DNA from: an uncultured Pelagibacteraceae bacterium
Lineage (GTDB): Bacteria; Pseudomonadota; Alphaproteobacteria; Pelagibacterales; Pelagibacteraceae
NCBI GenBank assembly: GCA_902634885.1
Contig: CACPLR010000002.1
Span: 95,543 to 159,542, forward strand
Direction: 5' to 3'
DNA: 64,000 nt
The notes beneath the pieces are model-generated. The model saw nothing but the letters and a program-made list of their open reading frames with translations, did no database searches and was not told the origin of the DNA. The position numbers and the translations under genes are program-made. This document shows positions 26,021-38,270 of the stretch, piece by piece (position 1 is the stretch's first letter; every line of letters starts with the position of its first letter).

Positions 26021-26662
26021 ATGCATCTAATTCATAGAGGAATTGTCAGTAAAAAATATCACGAAAACCTTCTCAAATCTTTTGAACAATCTTTTAAAAA
26101 AGGTTTTGGAATTGAAACAGACATTCATGCAACAAAAGATAATGAGTTTATTTGTTTTCATGATTTTACTCTAACAAGGATATTTAAAAGAAAAGAAAGT
26201 GTAAAAAGCTTAAGCTATTTGCAGATAAAAAATATCAGCGAAAAACAAAGAAAACCTGTTCCAACTCTTAAAAACCTCTTAAAAAGCTCTAAAAATAAAT
26301 ACTTTTTATTCATTGAGATAAAACCAACTTTTTCGATTAAGCAAATAAAGAAACTATTAAATGAAACTAAAAAATATAAAAAATGTGTATTCATTTCATT
26401 CAAACATAAAAATATTTTTAATATTTTAAAATTAAATAAAAAAACTAAAGTAGGTTTATCATTTTCTCCACCAAATAGTGTTCGATCAATAATTCAAAAA
26501 TCAAAAAACAAAAAAATTGATTGCTTAATTTTAGATAAATTCTATTTGAAAAATAAAAAAATAAATGAAATTAAATTAAATAAATATTTCTATACTATAA
26601 AGAAACGTTCGGAATTTAAAAAGTACTCTAAAGAAAATAATCTTATATTTGAAAATCTTTAA
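26021..26662 (+). CDS. Glycerophosphodiester phosphodiesterase family
   Basis: 213 aa; LIHRGIVSKKYHENLLKSFEQSFKKGFGIETDIHATKDNEFICFHDFTLTRI. Confidence 0.8.
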   Translation: MHLIHRGIVSKKYHENLLKSFEQSFKKGFGIETDIHATKDNEFICFHDFTLTRIFKRKESVKSLSYLQIKNISEKQRKPVPTLKNLLKSSKNKYFLFIEIKPTFSIKQIKKLLNETKKYKKCVFISFKHKNIFNILKLNKKTKVGLSFSPPNSVRSIIQKSKNKKIDCLILDKFYLKNKKINEIKLNKYFYTIKKRSEFKKYSKENNLIFENL

Positions 26663-27786
26663 TTTTGTTTTAGGTATTTTAATCGTCCAATAATTTCATC
26701 TCTATCCATATAATAACCTTGAAGATGTCTATGTCCTGAATTTGGATCAAATTCAGTTCTTCCATGAAGCAATCTTCTATTATTAAATGAAAAAATATCA
26801 CCTGGTTCTAACCTAAAATTAATTTGGAATTTAGGATCGTGCAATAAATTACCAAATCTGTGATGAGCTTTATAAACAGAATCCATTTGGTCTGGATGAC
26901 AATCTAAAGCGTCTAAAGTTGCAATACTATATCTGATATCATTATAATCTCCATCTTTAGTAAGAGATATTGCAGTACCATGAACACTTCTAATTGCTTC
27001 TTGGGTATAATCTTTGTCTCTAAATTTTAATGGTGTGTTAACTAAAATATCAAATACATCTTTCTCGTTATTTCTTAAATAATCTGCAACTGCAAAAGCA
27101 TCTACAGCGGATGAGTCTCCACCTTTAGCAGAATTAACCAAACAATGTAAAAATTGATAACCTGGTGGATTTTCAAACCAAGGTAAATCCATATGATTTC
27201 TTAGAGCATGCGCTGTATAAGCTGAATTATTAGGTTTTGGAATATTGATAACTTCAAACGGTGTTTTAAAAAAAGTTTCTCTGGTATGACTAATTCGATT
27301 TAAAACTTTCAAACCTGAATTTTTTTCTACAGGTGCATTTTTAACTATTGCAATTCCAGTGTAATGCAAAAGTTCTAGCCATTTTATTAATCCAGCTTCT
27401 GAATTAATTATTTCATCATACTCTATTTGAATTGTTTCTAAATTTTTTTCTAATGAACTATCCCAAAGTTTGTACGGTGAGATATATTTTTTTTTATTTT
27501 TAATTGTATAACAATTTTCTCTAAGCCATTTTGGATCATAGTAACTAGTATGATCACCCTCGCTCCACTCGATTTTAAGTTTTCCATCTGAGTTTACATT
27601 ATAATTTTTTGGATTAATATTTTGTGATACTTTAAGAATGTTAAACATTCTATGGTTTGAGTCTTTATCGTGTGCAGTTGGACAATTGTCTCTTAACCAT
27701 AAATAATTAAATTTACTCTCTTCGCCATCGCTCCAAATAACTTTTAAATAAGTTGAATTTTTTTCTAATTTAGAAATTGACTGCAT
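26659..27786 (-). CDS. Gamma-butyrobetaine hydroxylase-like Fe(II)/2OG dioxygenase (alternative: TmpA-like)
   Basis: 375 aa; N-terminal GBBH-like domain (VIWSDGEESKFNYLWLRDNCPTAHD), HxD in NHMDLPWFENPPGYQFLHCL, distal NNRRLLHGRTEFD. Confidence 0.8.
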   Translation of the reverse strand: MQSISKLEKNSTYLKVIWSDGEESKFNYLWLRDNCPTAHDKDSNHRMFNILKVSQNINPKNYNVNSDGKLKIEWSEGDHTSYYDPKWLRENCYTIKNKKKYISPYKLWDSSLEKNLETIQIEYDEIINSEAGLIKWLELLHYTGIAIVKNAPVEKNSGLKVLNRISHTRETFFKTPFEVINIPKPNNSAYTAHALRNHMDLPWFENPPGYQFLHCLVNSAKGGDSSAVDAFAVADYLRNNEKDVFDILVNTPLKFRDKDYTQEAIRSVHGTAISLTKDGDYNDIRYSIATLDALDCHPDQMDSVYKAHHRFGNLLHDPKFQINFRLEPGDIFSFNNRRLLHGRTEFDPNSGHRHLQGYYMDRDEIIGRLKYLKQN

Positions 27787-27965: not shown

Positions 27966-28991
27966 ATGTCAAAAATAGAAATTAATAACGTTTATAAAAT
28001 ATTCGGACCAAAACCAAATCAGGTCTTAGAAATGGTTAAAGGTGGTTCAGGAAAAGATGAAATTCTAGAAAAAACAGGACATACAGTTGGATTAGATAAT
28101 GTTTCATTAAAAATTGAAGAGGGTGAAACCTTTGTTTGTATGGGTTTATCAGGTTCGGGAAAATCAACTCTTATTAGACATTTAAATAGATTAATCGACC
28201 CAACCGATGGTGAAATATTAGTCGAAGGCACAAATGTTATGAGCCTTAATAAAGAAAAATTAATTGAATTTAGAAGGCACAAAATGAGTATGGTGTTTCA
28301 AAGATTTGGTTTGTTCCCACATAAAACTGTTTTACAAAATGTTGGTTATGGACTTGAAATGCAGGGTATTGATCCTGAAAAAAGAAATTCTGTTGCAATG
28401 GAAAAAATAGAAGCTGTAGGATTAAGCGGATTTGAAAACCAATATCCAAATCAATTGTCAGGTGGTATGCAACAACGAGTTGGTTTAGCACGAGCTTTGG
28501 CAACTGATACAGACATAATGTTAATGGATGAAGCATTTTCTGCATTAGATCCTTTAATTAGAAGTGATATGCAAAAACAATTATTAGATCTTCAAGCTCA
28601 ATTAAAAAAAACAATAGTTTTTATTACTCACGATTTAGACGAGTCTTTAAGATTAGGAGATCATATCGGTATTTTAAATGCTGGAAAACTTGTTCAAGTA
28701 GGAACTCCTGTTGAAATTGTGATGAACCCAGCTGATGATTATGTTGAAGCATTTGTTAAAGATGTAAATAGAGCAAAAGTTCTTAAAGCAAAAATAATTA
28801 TGAAAAGCACCAATGAAGTGAATGGAATTGATAAAAATAATCTTATTAAGGTCGGTGAAGATCAATTTATTGAGGAGTTTTTACCTCAAGTAGTTTGTAC
28901 CAATGCAAATTGTGAAGTAGTAGATAAACAAGGAAATATTAAAGGATATATAACAAATAAAGAATTGCAAAAATCTTTAACTAGATCATAA
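27966..28991 (+). CDS. proV: Glycine betaine/proline ABC transporter ATP-binding protein, ProV-like (no adjacent permease or binding protein)
   Basis: 341 aa; YKIFGPKP...GLDNVSLKIEEGETFVCMGLSGSGKSTLIRHLNRLI, LSGGMQQRVGLARALA, MDEAFSALDPLIR. Confidence 0.88.
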   Translation: MSKIEINNVYKIFGPKPNQVLEMVKGGSGKDEILEKTGHTVGLDNVSLKIEEGETFVCMGLSGSGKSTLIRHLNRLIDPTDGEILVEGTNVMSLNKEKLIEFRRHKMSMVFQRFGLFPHKTVLQNVGYGLEMQGIDPEKRNSVAMEKIEAVGLSGFENQYPNQLSGGMQQRVGLARALATDTDIMLMDEAFSALDPLIRSDMQKQLLDLQAQLKKTIVFITHDLDESLRLGDHIGILNAGKLVQVGTPVEIVMNPADDYVEAFVKDVNRAKVLKAKIIMKSTNEVNGIDKNNLIKVGEDQFIEEFLPQVVCTNANCEVVDKQGNIKGYITNKELQKSLTRS

Positions 28992-29000
28992 TATCCTTAT

Positions 29001-29852
29001 ATGTCTAAAAATTTAAAAGACATTATTGATTTAAATAAGTACCCTATCCACGATTTAAATTCTCCAAAAATTAAAAGTATTATAGAAAAATGTAAAAGTG
29101 ATTTAGAGCAAGATAGTTGCTCTACTCTACCTGACTTTATTTTGCCTAGCTCATTAAAAATAATGAATAATGAATTAGAGCAACAGTTAAATGAAGTTTA
29201 TATGTCTAAAGAAAGTATCAATGCATATCTTTATGCAAAAGATGATCCATCTTTACCAAATGATCATCCAAAAAGAACTTTTATGAATAGATATAATGGA
29301 TATTTAAATTCTGACTGTTTTTCAGAAAATTCCGAGATGAAATTTTTATATGAAACTGAAGAATTATTAAATTTTGTATCTGTTTGTTTAGGCGTTTCAC
29401 CTATTTATAGATGGGCAGATCCTCTAGCATGTCATGCTTATAATGTGATGAAGCCCGAAGGTATTTTGCCTTGGCATTTTGATAGTTGTGAATTTACTTT
29501 AAGTTTAATGATACAAAAATCAGAGAAAGGCGGCATCTTCGAATACTGTCCAAATATAAGAGAACCTGGAAATGAAAATTTTGAAGAGGTTAAAAAAGTA
29601 TTAAATGGAGATCGGTCAAGAGTGAAACAGCTTAAGCTTGAGCCTGGTGATTTACAAATTTTTAAAGGCAGATTTACATTGCATAGAGTGACCAAAATTG
29701 AGGGAAATTCATCGAGATATATGTGTATCCCTGCTTATGTTTTGGACCCCTACAGAGTAAATACACCTGAACATTCAAAAGCAATTTATGGAAAAGCACT
29801 TCCAATACATTATGAGAGAAATACAGCAAGATCAGATGGTCTTACAGATTAA
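29001..29852 (+). CDS. HalD/BesD-like Fe(II)/2OG oxygenase with HxD motif (predicted hydroxylase)
   Basis: 283 aa; YAKDDPSLPNDHPKRTFMNRYNGYL, LPWHFDSCEFTLSLMIQ, GGIFEYCPNIR, LEPGDLQIFKGRFTLHRVT. Confidence 0.7.
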   Translation: MSKNLKDIIDLNKYPIHDLNSPKIKSIIEKCKSDLEQDSCSTLPDFILPSSLKIMNNELEQQLNEVYMSKESINAYLYAKDDPSLPNDHPKRTFMNRYNGYLNSDCFSENSEMKFLYETEELLNFVSVCLGVSPIYRWADPLACHAYNVMKPEGILPWHFDSCEFTLSLMIQKSEKGGIFEYCPNIREPGNENFEEVKKVLNGDRSRVKQLKLEPGDLQIFKGRFTLHRVTKIEGNSSRYMCIPAYVLDPYRVNTPEHSKAIYGKALPIHYERNTARSDGLTD

Positions 29853-32259: not shown

Positions 32260-33201
32260 TTATCTCAATTTTTTTTCGTATTTTTTTCTCATCATTTGTA
32301 GCTCAACTAAATATTCATCTCTAATATTTGAAATCATTGAAACAGATTTTCCCTTTGATTGATTTTTTGTTCCACTAATTATTCTTGAAGATAAATTTTT
32401 AGTAAGTTTAGGAGCTTTTAGTTTGGTCCATGGAAGTTTAAGAGCTGGACCAAATTGTTCGAGCATATGTTTCATGCCAGCCTTTCCTCCTGCTAAGTGA
32501 AAAGTTAAAAAGGTACCCATTAAAGACCATCTTAATCCTGGTCCATCTTCAATAGCTCTATCTAAATCTTCAGTGGTAGCATATCCTTCATTAATTATAT
32601 GAAGCCCCTCTCTCCACAAAGCTTCCTGCAATCTGTCAGATAAATAACCTGGTAATTCTTTTTTTACCATAATCGGGTTCATTGAAATTGATTTATAAAA
32701 ATTTTTTGCTTGATTGAGATATTTAGTGCTCGTTTTTTTTCCAGGTACAATTTCAACTGCAGGCAAAAGATAAACAGGATTAAAAGGATGTCCTATAAGT
32801 GATCTTTGAGGATTTTTACATTTTGAATAAATTCTAGTAGGCAAAAGTCCAGATGAACTTGAAGATATAATCGCATTTGGTTTTGCATAATTTCCAACTG
32901 TGCTCATTAATTTTGTTTTAAGAGCATAATTTTCTGTTGCACATTCTTGAATAAATTCAGCATCCTTTAAAGTTTTCTCTAAGGAGGTAAAATAATAAAA
33001 ATTTTTTAAATTGAGTTTATTTTTTTTAAAAAGTTTTTTTACAAATGGCCAAGTTCTCTTAATTTCCTTTATTAAACTATTTTTAAGTTTTAGATCTTTA
33101 TCAAATGCATAAACAATTTTGTTATGAGCAAGGCATCTAATGATCCAGCCCGTTCCAATTACTCCAGTTCCTATAACTGCAACCTTTTTAATTGAGGACA
33201 T
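32260..33201 (-). CDS. 3-hydroxyacyl-CoA dehydrogenase family, L-carnitine dehydrogenase-like
   Basis: 313 aa; VAVIGTGVIGTGWIIRCLAHN, IISSSSSGLLPTRI, GHPFNPVYLLPAVEIVPG, EDGPGLRWSLMGTFLTFHLAGG; adjacent BKACE gene. Confidence 0.78.
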   Translation of the reverse strand: MSSIKKVAVIGTGVIGTGWIIRCLAHNKIVYAFDKDLKLKNSLIKEIKRTWPFVKKLFKKNKLNLKNFYYFTSLEKTLKDAEFIQECATENYALKTKLMSTVGNYAKPNAIISSSSSGLLPTRIYSKCKNPQRSLIGHPFNPVYLLPAVEIVPGKKTSTKYLNQAKNFYKSISMNPIMVKKELPGYLSDRLQEALWREGLHIINEGYATTEDLDRAIEDGPGLRWSLMGTFLTFHLAGGKAGMKHMLEQFGPALKLPWTKLKAPKLTKNLSSRIISGTKNQSKGKSVSMISNIRDEYLVELQMMRKKYEKKLR

Positions 33202-34088
33202 TACTTGTGTTTAACAAGTTTTAACTTTTCTCTTGTTTCAGCTGGCGTCATGATTGAGGCACCTAAATCTTCAACGATACGAACTGCTTTTTCAACCAAT
33301 TGAGCATTTGTTGCTAATTTTCCTTTTGATAAATATAAATTATCTTCCAATCCAACTCTTGGATTTCCACCCATAACAACTGTTTGAGCTACATAAGGCA
33401 TTTCATTTCTAGAGATTGCAAAACCAGACCAAACTGCCTCTTTAGGCATTGTGTCTTTCATTGCTTGCATTGCTAAAGGTGTGGCAGGTGCACCCCAAGG
33501 AATTCCTAAACACATTTGAAACATTGGAGGATCACTTAATAATCCTTCTTTATATAATTGAGATCCAAACCACATATTTCCCAAATCAAATGCTTCTATT
33601 TCTGGTTTTACTTTTATTTCTTTTAATTTTTTTGCAGCTTTTCTTAAATCATTTGGAGTGTTTACTGTTATTACAGATCCATCACCAAAATTTAAAGTTC
33701 CAGCATCAAGTGTGCAAATTTCTGGTAAAAATTGTTCTGCATTTGCAATTCGTTCCATAACGTTTGCCATATCTGTCATGGGTCCAAAGTCTAAAGGATT
33801 TTCACCTTGTCCAATATCTAAATCACCACCCATACCTGTTGTTAAATTTAAAATAACATCTGTTTCACTTGATCTAATTCTATCAACAACCTCTTTATAT
33901 AATTCTAATCTTCGACTTGGGGTACCGTCCTCTTCCCTTACATGAATATGTGCTATTGCAGCTCCAGCTTTTGCAGCCTCAATTGCTGATTTTGCAATTT
34001 GTTCTGGAGTTTTAGGTAAATCTGGATGTTTGCTAGCTGTATCACCAGAACCAGTCACAGCACAGGACACAAAAACTTTATTGTTCAT
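33201..34088 (-). CDS. BKACE (DUF849) beta-keto acid cleavage enzyme, dehydrocarnitine cleavage candidate
   Basis: 295 aa; VSCAVTGSGDTASKHPDLPKTPEQIA, AIAHIHVREEDGTPSR, PRVGLEDNLYLSKGKLATNAQLV. Confidence 0.85.
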   Translation of the reverse strand: MNNKVFVSCAVTGSGDTASKHPDLPKTPEQIAKSAIEAAKAGAAIAHIHVREEDGTPSRRLELYKEVVDRIRSSETDVILNLTTGMGGDLDIGQGENPLDFGPMTDMANVMERIANAEQFLPEICTLDAGTLNFGDGSVITVNTPNDLRKAAKKLKEIKVKPEIEAFDLGNMWFGSQLYKEGLLSDPPMFQMCLGIPWGAPATPLAMQAMKDTMPKEAVWSGFAISRNEMPYVAQTVVMGGNPRVGLEDNLYLSKGKLATNAQLVEKAVRIVEDLGASIMTPAETREKLKLVKHK

Positions 34089-34123: not shown

Positions 34124-34849
34124 ATGGAAATAACTGAGTTACAAAAAGATTTGGCTGCAACATTTAGGTGGACAGCAAGACTAAATATGCATGAAGCGGT
34201 TGCAAATCACTTTAGTGCTTGTGTTCCTGGATCCTCAGATTTCTACGTAAATAAAGCTGGTATTCATTTCAGTCAAATTAAAGCTAGTGATTTAATTTTA
34301 ATAACAAAAGAAAATATTGAAGAACTTAGAAATAAACCTGAAGTAGTAGATTCAACAGCATTAAATATACATGGAACTATTCATGAAAAAGCTCCACACG
34401 CAAAATGTATTTTTCATCTTCACTCAAAATATGCAACTGTTCTCTCGACCTTAAAAGATCCAACGCTTAAACCAATAGATCAAAATACTATGTTTTTTTA
34501 TAACAGAGTTGCTGTTTACAATGATTATGGAGGGTTGGGATTTGAGGAAGAGTCTATCAAAATGGCAAATGCTCTTGGAAATAAACAGCACATGATTTTA
34601 GCAAATCATGGCATCATAACAACTGGAGAGACAGTTGCTGAAGGTTTTAATTCTTTATACTATTTTGAAAAAGCCGCAGAAACATACATTACAGCTCTAT
34701 CAACAAATAAAAATTTAAATATTGTTAGTCATGAGGTTTCAGAAAAAACTTGTGAGGAAGCTGCAAACTATCCTGTTGATACGGCAAAGCAATTCTTATC
34801 GCAAATTAGACTAATCTTAGATAAAGAAGAGCCAGAATATGTAGATTAA
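34124..34849 (+). CDS. Class II aldolase/adducin family protein
   Basis: 241 aa; FHLHSKYATVLS, MILANHGIITTGETVAEGF. Confidence 0.87.
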   Translation: MEITELQKDLAATFRWTARLNMHEAVANHFSACVPGSSDFYVNKAGIHFSQIKASDLILITKENIEELRNKPEVVDSTALNIHGTIHEKAPHAKCIFHLHSKYATVLSTLKDPTLKPIDQNTMFFYNRVAVYNDYGGLGFEEESIKMANALGNKQHMILANHGIITTGETVAEGFNSLYYFEKAAETYITALSTNKNLNIVSHEVSEKTCEEAANYPVDTAKQFLSQIRLILDKEEPEYVD

Positions 34850-34850
34850 T

Positions 34851-35318
34851 ATGAGTATATTTCTTAAAAGCCAAAAAATTATTAAAGATTGGATTGATTA
34901 CAATGGCCATATGAATGTTGCCTACTATGTATTGATATTTGATGAAGCATCTGAGGGCATGCTTAATAAATTTAAAATGGGTGCAATTGATGCAAAAGCA
35001 AATAATAGAAGTACGATGGTCGTTGAGTCGAGAATTACATACAATAACGAAGTAAAAGAAAATGAGGAAGTAGACGTTTATTGTAATTTCTTCGATCATG
35101 ACAAGAAAAGGCTTATTGTTAGATATGAAATGTACGAGAAAGAGACCAAAAAATTAGCGGCTACTTTAGAATCTATGTCACTTTATATAGACCTTGAAAA
35201 AAGAAAAGTTACAGAATTTGAGCAAGAAAAATTGGATATTATGGATAAATTTATAAACGAAAATAAGGAAAAATTTAATTCAGAAAATTTAGTATTATCT
35301 GGTAAACTGAAAAAATAG
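34851..35318 (+). CDS. Hotdog thioesterase, betainyl-CoA thioesterase candidate
   Basis: 155 aa; DWIDYNGHMNVAYYVLIFDEA 4HBT motif; located beside carnitine dehydrogenase/BKACE-like genes. Confidence 0.75.
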   Translation: MSIFLKSQKIIKDWIDYNGHMNVAYYVLIFDEASEGMLNKFKMGAIDAKANNRSTMVVESRITYNNEVKENEEVDVYCNFFDHDKKRLIVRYEMYEKETKKLAATLESMSLYIDLEKRKVTEFEQEKLDIMDKFINENKEKFNSENLVLSGKLKK

Positions 35319-35320
35319 AT

Positions 35321-36148
35321 ATGGAAGTAAAATTATTATCAGGTGCATTAGGCGCGGAAGTTTCTGGGATTGATTTAACAGATAGTTCTGATGAAAACTT
35401 TAATAAAATTAATGAATTATTATTAGAGCACAAAGTAATATTTTTTAGAGATCAACCTTTAACCTCTGAACAACAAATTTTACTCGCAAAAAAATTTGGT
35501 CCTCTTGAGACACATGCCTATGTAAAAGGTTTAGAAAATTTTCCAGAAATAGTGAGAATTAAAAAAGCACCTGAAGAAAAACATCAGTGGGGAGAAACGT
35601 GGCATACGGATGTAAGTTATAATCCAAAACCTACAAAAGTTATTATTTTAAAATCAGTAAAAATTCCACCAGTTGGTGGGGATACCATGTTTTCAAATAT
35701 GGAAACCGCCTATGATACCTTACCAGATGAGATGAAAGAAAAAATCAAAGATAAAAAAGCTGTTCATAGTTCTCTTGGTGCTGAAGCGTTTGTTAAAAAA
35801 TATAAAGAGATGGAGGGTAATGGAAATTTAGATGAATATTCAAATATCCATCCAATAGTTAGAATTCACCCAGAAACAGGTAAAAAAATACTTTATGTAA
35901 ACTCGATGTACACAAAACAAATAATTGATATGGATAAAGAGGAAAGTGATAAAATTTTAAAAGAATTATTCCTCCATCAAGAAAGATTAGATTTTACATG
36001 TAGGTTTAAATGGACTGAAAATGCTGTTGCAATTTGGGATAATAGAAGCACGCAACATCAGGGTCTAACAGATTTTTTTCCAAACAGAGGTCTTGGATTT
36101 GAAAGAGTGATGGATCGTATAGCTATTGAGGGTGATCATCCTCAATAA
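35321..36148 (+). CDS. TauD/TfdA family Fe(II)/2OG dioxygenase
   Basis: 275 aa; VIFFRDQPLTSEQQ, ETWHTDVSYNPKPT, WDNRSTQHQGLTDFF. Confidence 0.88.
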   Translation: MEVKLLSGALGAEVSGIDLTDSSDENFNKINELLLEHKVIFFRDQPLTSEQQILLAKKFGPLETHAYVKGLENFPEIVRIKKAPEEKHQWGETWHTDVSYNPKPTKVIILKSVKIPPVGGDTMFSNMETAYDTLPDEMKEKIKDKKAVHSSLGAEAFVKKYKEMEGNGNLDEYSNIHPIVRIHPETGKKILYVNSMYTKQIIDMDKEESDKILKELFLHQERLDFTCRFKWTENAVAIWDNRSTQHQGLTDFFPNRGLGFERVMDRIAIEGDHPQ

Positions 36149-36150
36149 TC

Positions 36151-36690
36151 TTGATGCAGATTATCGAAAAAATCATTTCAAATTTTTCTAATAATAATTC
36201 TTTATACATTGGGGAAAAACTTACAATGTCAGAGCACATGATCCAATCCGCAATGCTTGCTGAAAAATCTAAATGTGATGATGATTTAATATGTTCCTGT
36301 TTGTTGCATGACTATGGACATTTTTTAATAGATAACCCTGATGAACTTGTAAAAAATAAATTAGATGGTGGGCATGAGTTAATTGGATATGAATATTTAA
36401 AAAAATTCTTTAAAAAACAAATAGTAGAGCCAATTAGATATCATGTATTAGCTAAAAGATATCTTGCAAGAAACAAAACATATTTTGAACAACTATCGAA
36501 AGCATCAAAAGTAAGCTTAGAACTTCAAGGCGGTATATTAAATAATAAAGATGCTGAGAGTTTTAAAAGGAAATCTTATTTCAAATCATCAATTTTACTG
36601 AGAAAATTTGATGAGGCTGCAAAAAAAACATATGTCAAAATGAAAACTATTCATGAATATAAAAAATTGCTAATTTCAAAAATAATATGA
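36151..36690 (+). CDS. PhnZ/TmpB-like HD-domain (mixed-valent diiron) oxygenase, phosphonate-degradation HDIG family
   Basis: 179 aa; YIGE, SEHMIQSAMLAE, LLHDYGHFL, LDGGHELIGYEYL, RYHVLAKRYL, LELQGG, LLRKFDEAAK. Confidence 0.75.
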   Translation: MMQIIEKIISNFSNNNSLYIGEKLTMSEHMIQSAMLAEKSKCDDDLICSCLLHDYGHFLIDNPDELVKNKLDGGHELIGYEYLKKFFKKQIVEPIRYHVLAKRYLARNKTYFEQLSKASKVSLELQGGILNNKDAESFKRKSYFKSSILLRKFDEAAKKTYVKMKTIHEYKKLLISKII

Positions 36691-38270
36691 ATTTTGATTA
36701 TTTAATAGTTGGAGCTGGTTCGGCTGGATGTGTAGTTGCAAACAGATTATCAGAGAATTCAAATAATACTGTTGCAATTTTTGAGGCAGGTGGATCTAGT
36801 GATATTTGGAAAGTAAAGATGCCATTGGCGCTTTTGTATACAATGCATGATCCAAAATATAATTGGAAGTATTATTCAGAACCTGAGCCATACTTAAATG
36901 ATAGACGTGTCTTTTGTCCAAGAGGAAAGATGATTGGCGGATGTTCATCTCATAATGGAATGGTTTTTGTTAGAGGTAATAGAGATGATTATACAAGATG
37001 GGAAAATTTTGGTTTAAGTAATTGGTCTTACGATAAAGTACTACCGTACTTTAAAAAAATAGAGACTTGGTCTGGTGGAGAAAATCAATTTAGAGGCTCT
37101 TTAGGTCCTCTTCCAGTAAATCTATCTGAAAATTCAAATCCATTATTTAAAGCATTTATTAATGCAGCAGCTGAAGCAGGTCACAGAACAAATATAGATA
37201 TGAATGGTGAAGAGCAAGAGGGATTTGGAATGTTTGATACTACAATGCATGAAGGCGAAAGAGCCGGTGTTGCAAAATATTATTTAAATCCTGTTAAAAA
37301 TAGAAAAAATTTAAATATTTTAAAAAATTCATTTGTTGAGAAAATATTATTTGAAGGAAAAAAGGCAGTTGGTCTTCAAGTAAAAATTAAAAATAAAGTT
37401 CAAAAAATCTATGCAAATAAAGAAGTAATACTGAGTGGAGGATCTATAAATTCTCCTCAATTATTAATGTTATCAGGAATTGGTGATGAAGCCCACTTAA
37501 GAGATAACGGCATTGAAGTTGTGCATAACTCAAAAGGTGTTGGAAAAAATTTACAAGACCATCTTGAAACTTACATTCAACAAAAATGTAAGACACCCAA
37601 CACTCTTTATACGTACACAAAATTGATACCTAAAGTTTTAGCAGGTATACGATGGTTTATGTTTAAATCAGGACCTTGTTCAAAATCGTTTTTGGAGGCT
37701 GGGGGTTTTGCAAAATCTTCACCAGAGAGAAAGGTTGCTAACATTCAATTTCATTTCTTTCCATCTTTTGTAATAAATCATGGTTTAGAGGATCCAGACT
37801 CGCACGGTTATCAATTACATGCGAGTCCAAATCATCCAAAAAGCAGAGGTGAGATAACTCTAAATTCATCAGATCCATACGATTACCCTAAAATTTTATT
37901 TAATTATTTAAAAGAAGAGGAAGATCTAAAACAAACTAGAGAATGTATTCATGTTGCAAGAAAAATTCTATCACAACCAGCTCTTTCAGAACATGCTGGG
38001 GATGAAGTTGGACCAGGTTTCAACGCTCAGTCAGATGATGAATTGAATGAATATATAAGATCTAAAGCAGATACCGCTTATCACCCTTGTGGAACTTGTA
38101 AAATGGGAGTAGATGACATGGCAGTTGTAGATCAAGATTTAAAAGTAAATGGAATTGGAAATTTAAGGGTAATTGATGCATCAGTTATACCTGAAATACC
38201 AAGTGCTAATTTAAATGCCCCTACCCTAATGATTGCCGAAAAAGGTTCTGAGGCTATTCTTAATAATTAA
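36687..38270 (+). CDS. GMC family oxidoreductase, choline dehydrogenase-like
   Basis: 527 aa; DYLIVGAGSAGCVVANRLSE, GKMIGGCSSHNGMVFVRGN, GGSINSPQLLMLSGIGD, YHPCGTCKMG. Confidence 0.85.
   Translation: MNFDYLIVGAGSAGCVVANRLSENSNNTVAIFEAGGSSDIWKVKMPLALLYTMHDPKYNWKYYSEPEPYLNDRRVFCPRGKMIGGCSSHNGMVFVRGNRDDYTRWENFGLSNWSYDKVLPYFKKIETWSGGENQFRGSLGPLPVNLSENSNPLFKAFINAAAEAGHRTNIDMNGEEQEGFGMFDTTMHEGERAGVAKYYLNPVKNRKNLNILKNSFVEKILFEGKKAVGLQVKIKNKVQKIYANKEVILSGGSINSPQLLMLSGIGDEAHLRDNGIEVVHNSKGVGKNLQDHLETYIQQKCKTPNTLYTYTKLIPKVLAGIRWFMFKSGPCSKSFLEAGGFAKSSPERKVANIQFHFFPSFVINHGLEDPDSHGYQLHASPNHPKSRGEITLNSSDPYDYPKILFNYLKEEEDLKQTRECIHVARKILSQPALSEHAGDEVGPGFNAQSDDELNEYIRSKADTAYHPCGTCKMGVDDMAVVDQDLKVNGIGNLRVIDASVIPEIPSANLNAPTLMIAEKGSEAILNN

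Follow-up and report, generated by a model that had tools for sequence, protein, structure and literature searches.

A predicted phosphonate-cleaving HD-domain oxygenase of separate lineage as an optional gene of a betaine operon in Pelagibacteraceae

The window, i.e. the whole stretch of 64,000 nucleotides that was analysed, derives from an uncultured Pelagibacteraceae bacterium, the genome assembly of which (G000; 1.17 Mb, 37 contigs) is 79% complete; those of its relatives that bear names in the genome collection belong to the Pelagibacteraceae or the Pelagibacterales. The gene cluster under study is adjoined by a glycerophosphodiester phosphodiesterase-like (GDPD-like) ORF (26021..26662, plus strand; ORF reading), which according to gene-order comparison is kept beside the following gene in several relatives. 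This gene (26659..27786, minus strand) is predicted to encode a gamma-butyrobetaine-hydroxylase-like (GBBH-like) 2OG oxygenase (PF06155 and PF02668; TIGR02409, 316.8 bits, cut-off 414.75), and scored lower with the TmpA model (274.6 bits, cut-off 400); its candidacy as a disguised TmpA was rejected, because the GBBH score is the higher one and because loci that lack the HD gene described below carry it as well. A ProV-like ATPase of a betaine-type ABC transporter is encoded at 27966..28991 (plus strand; ORF reading), and ProX- and ProW-like ORFs adjoin this gene in relatives. Between the ProV-like gene and an FrhB-like ORF, positions 29001-29852 gave a weak match to HalD/WelO5-type 2OG halogenases (PF23169, PF22814). 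Two genes on the minus strand encode an L-carnitine dehydrogenase-like protein (32260..33201; NF005471, 349 bits, cut-off 414) and a beta-keto acid cleavage enzyme (BKACE; 33201..34088; PF05853, E 3e-94). The class II aldolase-like gene (34124..34849, plus strand; PF00596; NF005689, 295 bits, cut-off 260) is optional, its presence varying among relatives; in some genomes, the region upstream of the thioesterase gene encodes a citrate-lyase-beta/HpcH-type protein of 286 aa (locus L040, 8278-9138, and relatives), either in place of the class II aldolase or alongside it.

On the plus strand, a hot-dog thioesterase gene (TE; 34851..35318; PF13279), the product of which by profile match (NF005716, positions 345-480) aligns to the C-terminal part of carnitine 3-dehydrogenase, is followed by genes for a TauD-family 2OG-Fe(II) dioxygenase (35321..36148; 275 aa; PF02668, 203 bits, E 9e-60), for an HD-domain oxygenase of the PhnZ/TmpB superfamily, here termed HD1 (36154..36690; assigned through profiles, PDB phmmer, alignment, tree and Foldseek), and for a choline-dehydrogenase-like GMC oxidoreductase (36687..38270) that overlaps the HD gene by 4 nt (ATGA). 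The TauD and HD genes are each optional at this site. The GMC protein scored above the cut-off of the NF002550 subfamily (718.7 bits, cut-off 605) and below that of the TIGR01810 equivalog (649 bits, cut-off 732), and its gene is the sole GMC gene detected in the window's genome, the assembly of which is incomplete. A sequence-only reading had placed the TauD and HD ORFs in this position within a betaine-forming neighbourhood; both ORFs were located there, and profiles and ORF reading bore out the neighbourhood (GBBH-like oxygenase, ProV, carnitine dehydrogenase, BKACE, TE and choline-dehydrogenase-like GMC). No phosphonate transporter or pho-type gene was found in the window cluster.

The HD ORF spans 36151-36690 if a TTG start is assumed; the in-frame ATG at 36154 is the likelier start, and orthologues begin there too. 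This ATG lies 5 nt past the TauD stop. The residues Y19, E22, H29, H53-D54, H75, H98 and D154 (TTG numbering) had been read correctly in the sequence-only reading, and in the alignment that it had called for they match PhnZ Y24, E27, H34, H58-D59, H80, H104 and D161 exactly, one to one. In ATG numbering, the ligands (H28, H52, D53, H74, H97, D153), which align with both PhnZ and TmpB, and the YxxE gate (Y18/E21) are invariant across the nine HD1 sequences compared; so are K101, S118 and R150, which align with PhnZ K108, S126 and R158, the residues that we take to be the phosphonate contacts. At all of these positions, 34 other family members show no or next to no variation as well. The motif HDYGH of HD1 was seen in none of the other members compared. 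The YxxE pair acts as substrate gate in PhnZ/TmpB-type HD oxygenases (PMC8177086).

A phmmer search of the PDB with HD1 returned TmpB (6npa, E 7e-29) and PhnZ (4mlm, E 3e-25), and no other solved relative of significance. The AF2 model of HD1 is of moderate confidence (pLDDT 72.6; N-terminal part <50); with this model, Foldseek matched TmpB and PhnZ chains at E 1.7e-6 to 1.2e-5, the next match being at E 3, and no further chain fell under E 0.001. The dN/dS ratio of the HD gene (0.03-0.18) indicates purifying selection. By sequence, by predicted fold and by each active-site residue checked, the protein is a PhnZ/TmpB-type oxygenase, as had been proposed.

Within this superfamily, HD1 stays below the cut-offs of all three models to which it was compared: TIGR03276 (E 2e-48, 164.2 bits, cut-off 214.6), the TmpB model NF049941 (E 8e-42, 143.1 bits, cut-off 300; the TmpA-linked TmpB at locus L065 scores 364.7 bits) and the PhnZ1 model (E 3e-37, 128 bits, cut-off 300). 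In a tree that sampled TmpB, PhnZ and other alphaproteobacterial HD matches, HD1 formed a Pelagibacteraceae clade of its own (support 100/100) on a long branch, and the TmpB clade (98/96) excludes it; the sister group of HD1 is not settled, owing to long branches and uneven letter composition. Membership in TmpB was therefore rejected. HD1 shares 3-5 of 21 TmpB-diagnostic columns, including M29 and F57, which adjoin ligands, compared with 0-2 in other lineages and seven in the TmpA-linked L295; this hints weakly at a TmpB-like pocket. Given the separate clade, its exclusion from TmpB and the invariant equivalents of the phosphonate-site residues, HD1 probably represents a new lineage of phosphonate-cleaving HD oxygenases. 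No occurrence of HD1 on viral contigs was confirmed.

The known systems resemble HD1 in part. In the TmpA/TmpB pathway of Leisingera caerulea (TmpA 6npb, TmpB 6npa), TmpB agrees with HD1 in its ligands, in the YxxE gate and in the basic residues of the pocket, and betaine would be the expected product in the setting of HD1 too; the 2OG neighbour of HD1, however, is optional and of TauD type, and lacks a GBBH-like N-terminal domain. The HD fold and the full active-site set are likewise common to the PhnZ of PhnY/PhnZ (2-AEP) and to the PhnZ1 of G. maris PhnY/PhnZ1 (methylphosphonate), whereas the HD1 cluster has neither a PhyH-type PhnY neighbour nor a phosphonate transporter.

A second HD oxygenase of the same superfamily is encoded in the window's genome on another contig (G000:C9:18644-19138; L052:9624-10172). 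It is approximately 39% identical to HD1 and scores 202.7 bits with TIGR03276. It adjoins a PhnD-type (PF12974) phosphonate-binding protein, phnE-like transporter ORFs and PhoR/Pst-type ORFs, and no 2OG hydroxylase was seen next to it in the stretch read. The two HD copies are thus found in different settings: the second copy lies by phosphonate-binding and phosphorus-starvation-type genes, and HD1 in a betaine locus.

The order TE-[TauD]-[HD]-GMC around the HD, TauD and GMC genes is common to the relatives. Among 80 named HD loci, a GMC gene lies downstream of the HD gene in all 79 for which the next gene is on the contig, with an overlap of 4 nt in the loci measured. The HD gene is optional at this site: the HD ORF is what sets apart a locus with TE-HD-GMC (L042) from one with TE-GMC (L226), the flanks on either side being 93-94% identical, and the nearest GMC relatives of the window (95% identical) lack the HD gene. 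In a GMC tree of 35 loci, a mixture of genomes found through HD and through GMC, the state with both TauD and HD requires at least five changes on well-supported branches; in a TauD tree, the HD label requires two changes. Directly upstream of TauD-HD-GMC, two loci (L044, L048) carry formate-dehydrogenase-like genes (ORFs of 922 aa and 552 aa).

The fixed linkage of HD1 to the GMC gene, and not to any phosphonate gene, would also suit an enzyme with a non-phosphonate substrate, on which it would act by myo-inositol-oxygenase-like (MIOX-like) C-C cleavage or as a hydrolase, for example a compound that the GMC enzyme forms in the course of choline or carnitine breakdown, and the long-branch position and the HDYGH motif of HD1 would fit such a departure. 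We regard this as quite improbable: HD1 shows no variation in the YxxE gate or in the equivalents of PhnZ K108, S126 and R158, and no MIOX or hydrolase match was obtained in the sequence or fold searches.

The TauD and HD genes had been proposed to form a two-gene pathway of the PhnY/PhnZ or TmpA/TmpB type, and this was not supported by their distribution. Among 24 related, hence not independent, same-genus genomes that were found through GMC and had a readable state, both genes were present at the site in nine, TauD only in ten, HD only in one, and neither in four, and co-occurrence is not significant (Fisher p=0.36). The states were read by hand and from contiguous intervals only, since the genomes are mostly incomplete single-cell assemblies; this table is a fairer sample than the 35-locus set. 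One genome (G020) was scored as having TauD alone, since its HD copy, a divergent one (55% identical), is encoded on a different contig, and a genome with a broken TauD beside HD (G071) was left out; if it is counted as TauD-less, p=0.66. In the latter, an in-frame stop splits the TauD ORF (L046, 9382-10210), and the downstream HD and GMC genes are open. TauD lies directly against GMC, with no HD gene between, at ten same-genus loci, and dN/dS values of 0.03-0.07 indicate purifying selection on TauD where HD is absent. The two genes are gained and lost independently of each other.

An obligate two-step pathway, in which TauD would hydroxylate a phosphonate and HD1 would cleave the product, thus appears doubtful, and it was rejected as the default reading on account of the independent presence and absence of the genes. 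It is favoured by the adjacent and co-directional position of the two genes in the window and at about 65 (64-65) of the 80 named HD loci, a sample found through HD and biased for HD itself, and by the two residues H65 and R266 of the TauD protein, which make an anionic CH2-X substrate plausible. It is opposed by the independent turnover of the genes at one site, by the selection on TauD where HD is absent, and by the split TauD gene beside open HD and GMC genes; in addition, TE lies directly upstream of HD, with no TauD, at 15 of the 80 HD loci, and TauD orthologues elsewhere have no adjoining HD or phosphonate gene. Where both genes occur, TauD may hydroxylate the substrate of HD1, but their adjacency is no evidence of that.

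The TauD protein itself shares 36% identity with E. coli TauD and scores below the cut-off of the corresponding model (NF007104, 228.6 bits, cut-off 313). The Fe ligands (H95/D97/H246) and the 2OG arginine (R262) are kept, as are the equivalents (H65/R266) of E. coli H70 and R270, which hydrogen-bond taurine; in contrast, D94 and N95, which position the amine of taurine in the E. coli enzyme, are replaced by W90 and G91. Two types of TauD occur at the site, one with a WHTD...STQHQGLTDF-like pattern (window, L045-L047, L215-L221) and one with WHSD...SV(I/Q)H(Y/F)AIADF, found at the majority of the remaining loci. Orthologues in a sister family (60-67% identical; L231, L232, L233, L234, L238, L244) are accompanied by an EamA-type transporter gene and adjoin an alkylsulfatase-type gene, which was typed by Pfam (PF14863) in L231 only, the other five having a gene of similar size.

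Since TauD persists without HD, a sulfonate or sulfate ester may be what it acts on, with no partner. As a stand-alone dioxygenase, it would hydroxylate such a derivative of a quaternary amine, e.g. taurobetaine, or choline-O-sulfate in the manner of AtsK; this single step would set free sulfite or sulfate together with betaine aldehyde and would leave no need for an HD protein, and HD1 would form a separate, phosphonate branch to the same product. The common occurrence of selected TauD-GMC loci that lack HD, the kept H70/R270 equivalents with replaced taurine amine contacts, one of them by a tryptophan (W90), and the transporter and alkylsulfatase-type context at six of six sister-family loci point in this direction; the orientation of the substrate in the pocket, however, is predicted from alignment. 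We hold this reading to be possible, if somewhat unlikely in its full form. For the TauD protein as such, a role of its own on a sulfonate or sulfate ester and the hydroxylation of the HD1 substrate are equally plausible.

No hydroxylase is consistently linked to HD, TauD being optional and the other candidate, a TmpA-like oxygenase gene, being present regardless of HD. The latter was detected on another contig of the window's genome (G000:C1); its product scores higher with the TmpA model (338 bits) than with the GBBH model (271 bits), and its top solved relative is TmpA (6npb, 177 bits). The gene was found in approximately 83 of 121 same-genus genomes, i.e. in about 17 of 23 with and about 66 of 98 without HD, and its role appears independent of HD, given this about equal presence; for lack of enrichment in genomes with HD it was rejected as an HD-specific partner. 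When the surroundings of 30 other alphaproteobacterial HD matches were compared with TmpA/GBBH-type and TauD references, a match to the former was present near two of them and a match to TauD near none. That the real hydroxylase of HD1 is the unlinked TmpA-like oxygenase, in a split TmpA/TmpB pathway, would agree with the higher TmpA score and the TmpA structure as best relative, with three loci at which the gene lies close to HD (L045, L051, L067) and with its presence in genomes with HD that lack TauD (G010, G089); its score below the TmpA cut-off (400) and its about equal presence with and without HD argue against, and we consider the split pathway rather unlikely. The TmpA-like oxygenase is a possible, non-specific partner of HD1.

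In our preferred reading, which we judge on the whole to be fairly probable, HD1 is a C-P-cleaving oxygenase of the PhnZ/TmpB kind, of a lineage of its own, encoded by an optional gene of the betaine operon, and with a quaternary-ammonium hydroxyphosphonate as its most likely substrate; the last point follows from the fixed place of HD1 in a betaine-forming operon, and the trimethylammonium phosphonate suggested in the sequence-only reading is a reasonable guess in this setting. This reading is favoured by the TmpB and PhnZ matches in sequence and fold, the invariant active-site positions, the selection on the HD gene, its constant GMC neighbour, the betaine setting, the shared TmpB-diagnostic columns and the different setting of the second HD copy; against it stand the model scores, the long branch outside the TmpB clade, the absence from the window cluster of a phosphonate transporter or pho-type gene, the lack of a consistently linked hydroxylase, the small number of shared TmpB-diagnostic columns and the moderate AF2 model. 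HD1 would be a mixed-valent diiron oxygenase that acts on an (R)-1-hydroxyphosphonate and breaks its C-P bond by four-electron oxidation, for example converting (R)-1-hydroxy-2-(trimethylammonio)ethylphosphonate to glycine betaine and phosphate. Its gene would be inserted scarlessly, as an option, between TE (or TauD) and GMC. The 1-hydroxylation would be provided by TauD where present, or by the TmpA-like oxygenase encoded elsewhere, or would be unneeded if the hydroxyphosphonate is taken up. With HD as an optional module at this site, betaine derived from phosphonate would join the betaine from carnitine and choline.

A wider reading, to which we assign a low probability, is that the Pelagibacteraceae betaine operon is modular, with single-gene gain and loss of branches for carnitine (CarDH/BKACE/TE), choline (GMC), sulfonate or sulfate ester (TauD alone) and phosphonate (HD), the HD lineage being specific to quaternary-ammonium hydroxyphosphonates; if so, quaternary amines bearing varied headgroups would be converted to betaine or betaine aldehyde.

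The adjacency observed in one genome is insufficient to pair a 2OG oxygenase gene with an HD gene. The carriers of HD1 are abundant ocean bacteria (SAR11-type), in which a probable C-P-splitting iron enzyme lies inside a glycine betaine cluster; if HD1 cleaves a betaine-type phosphonate, the release of phosphorus in these bacteria would be tied to osmolyte use and not to a phosphate-starvation locus.
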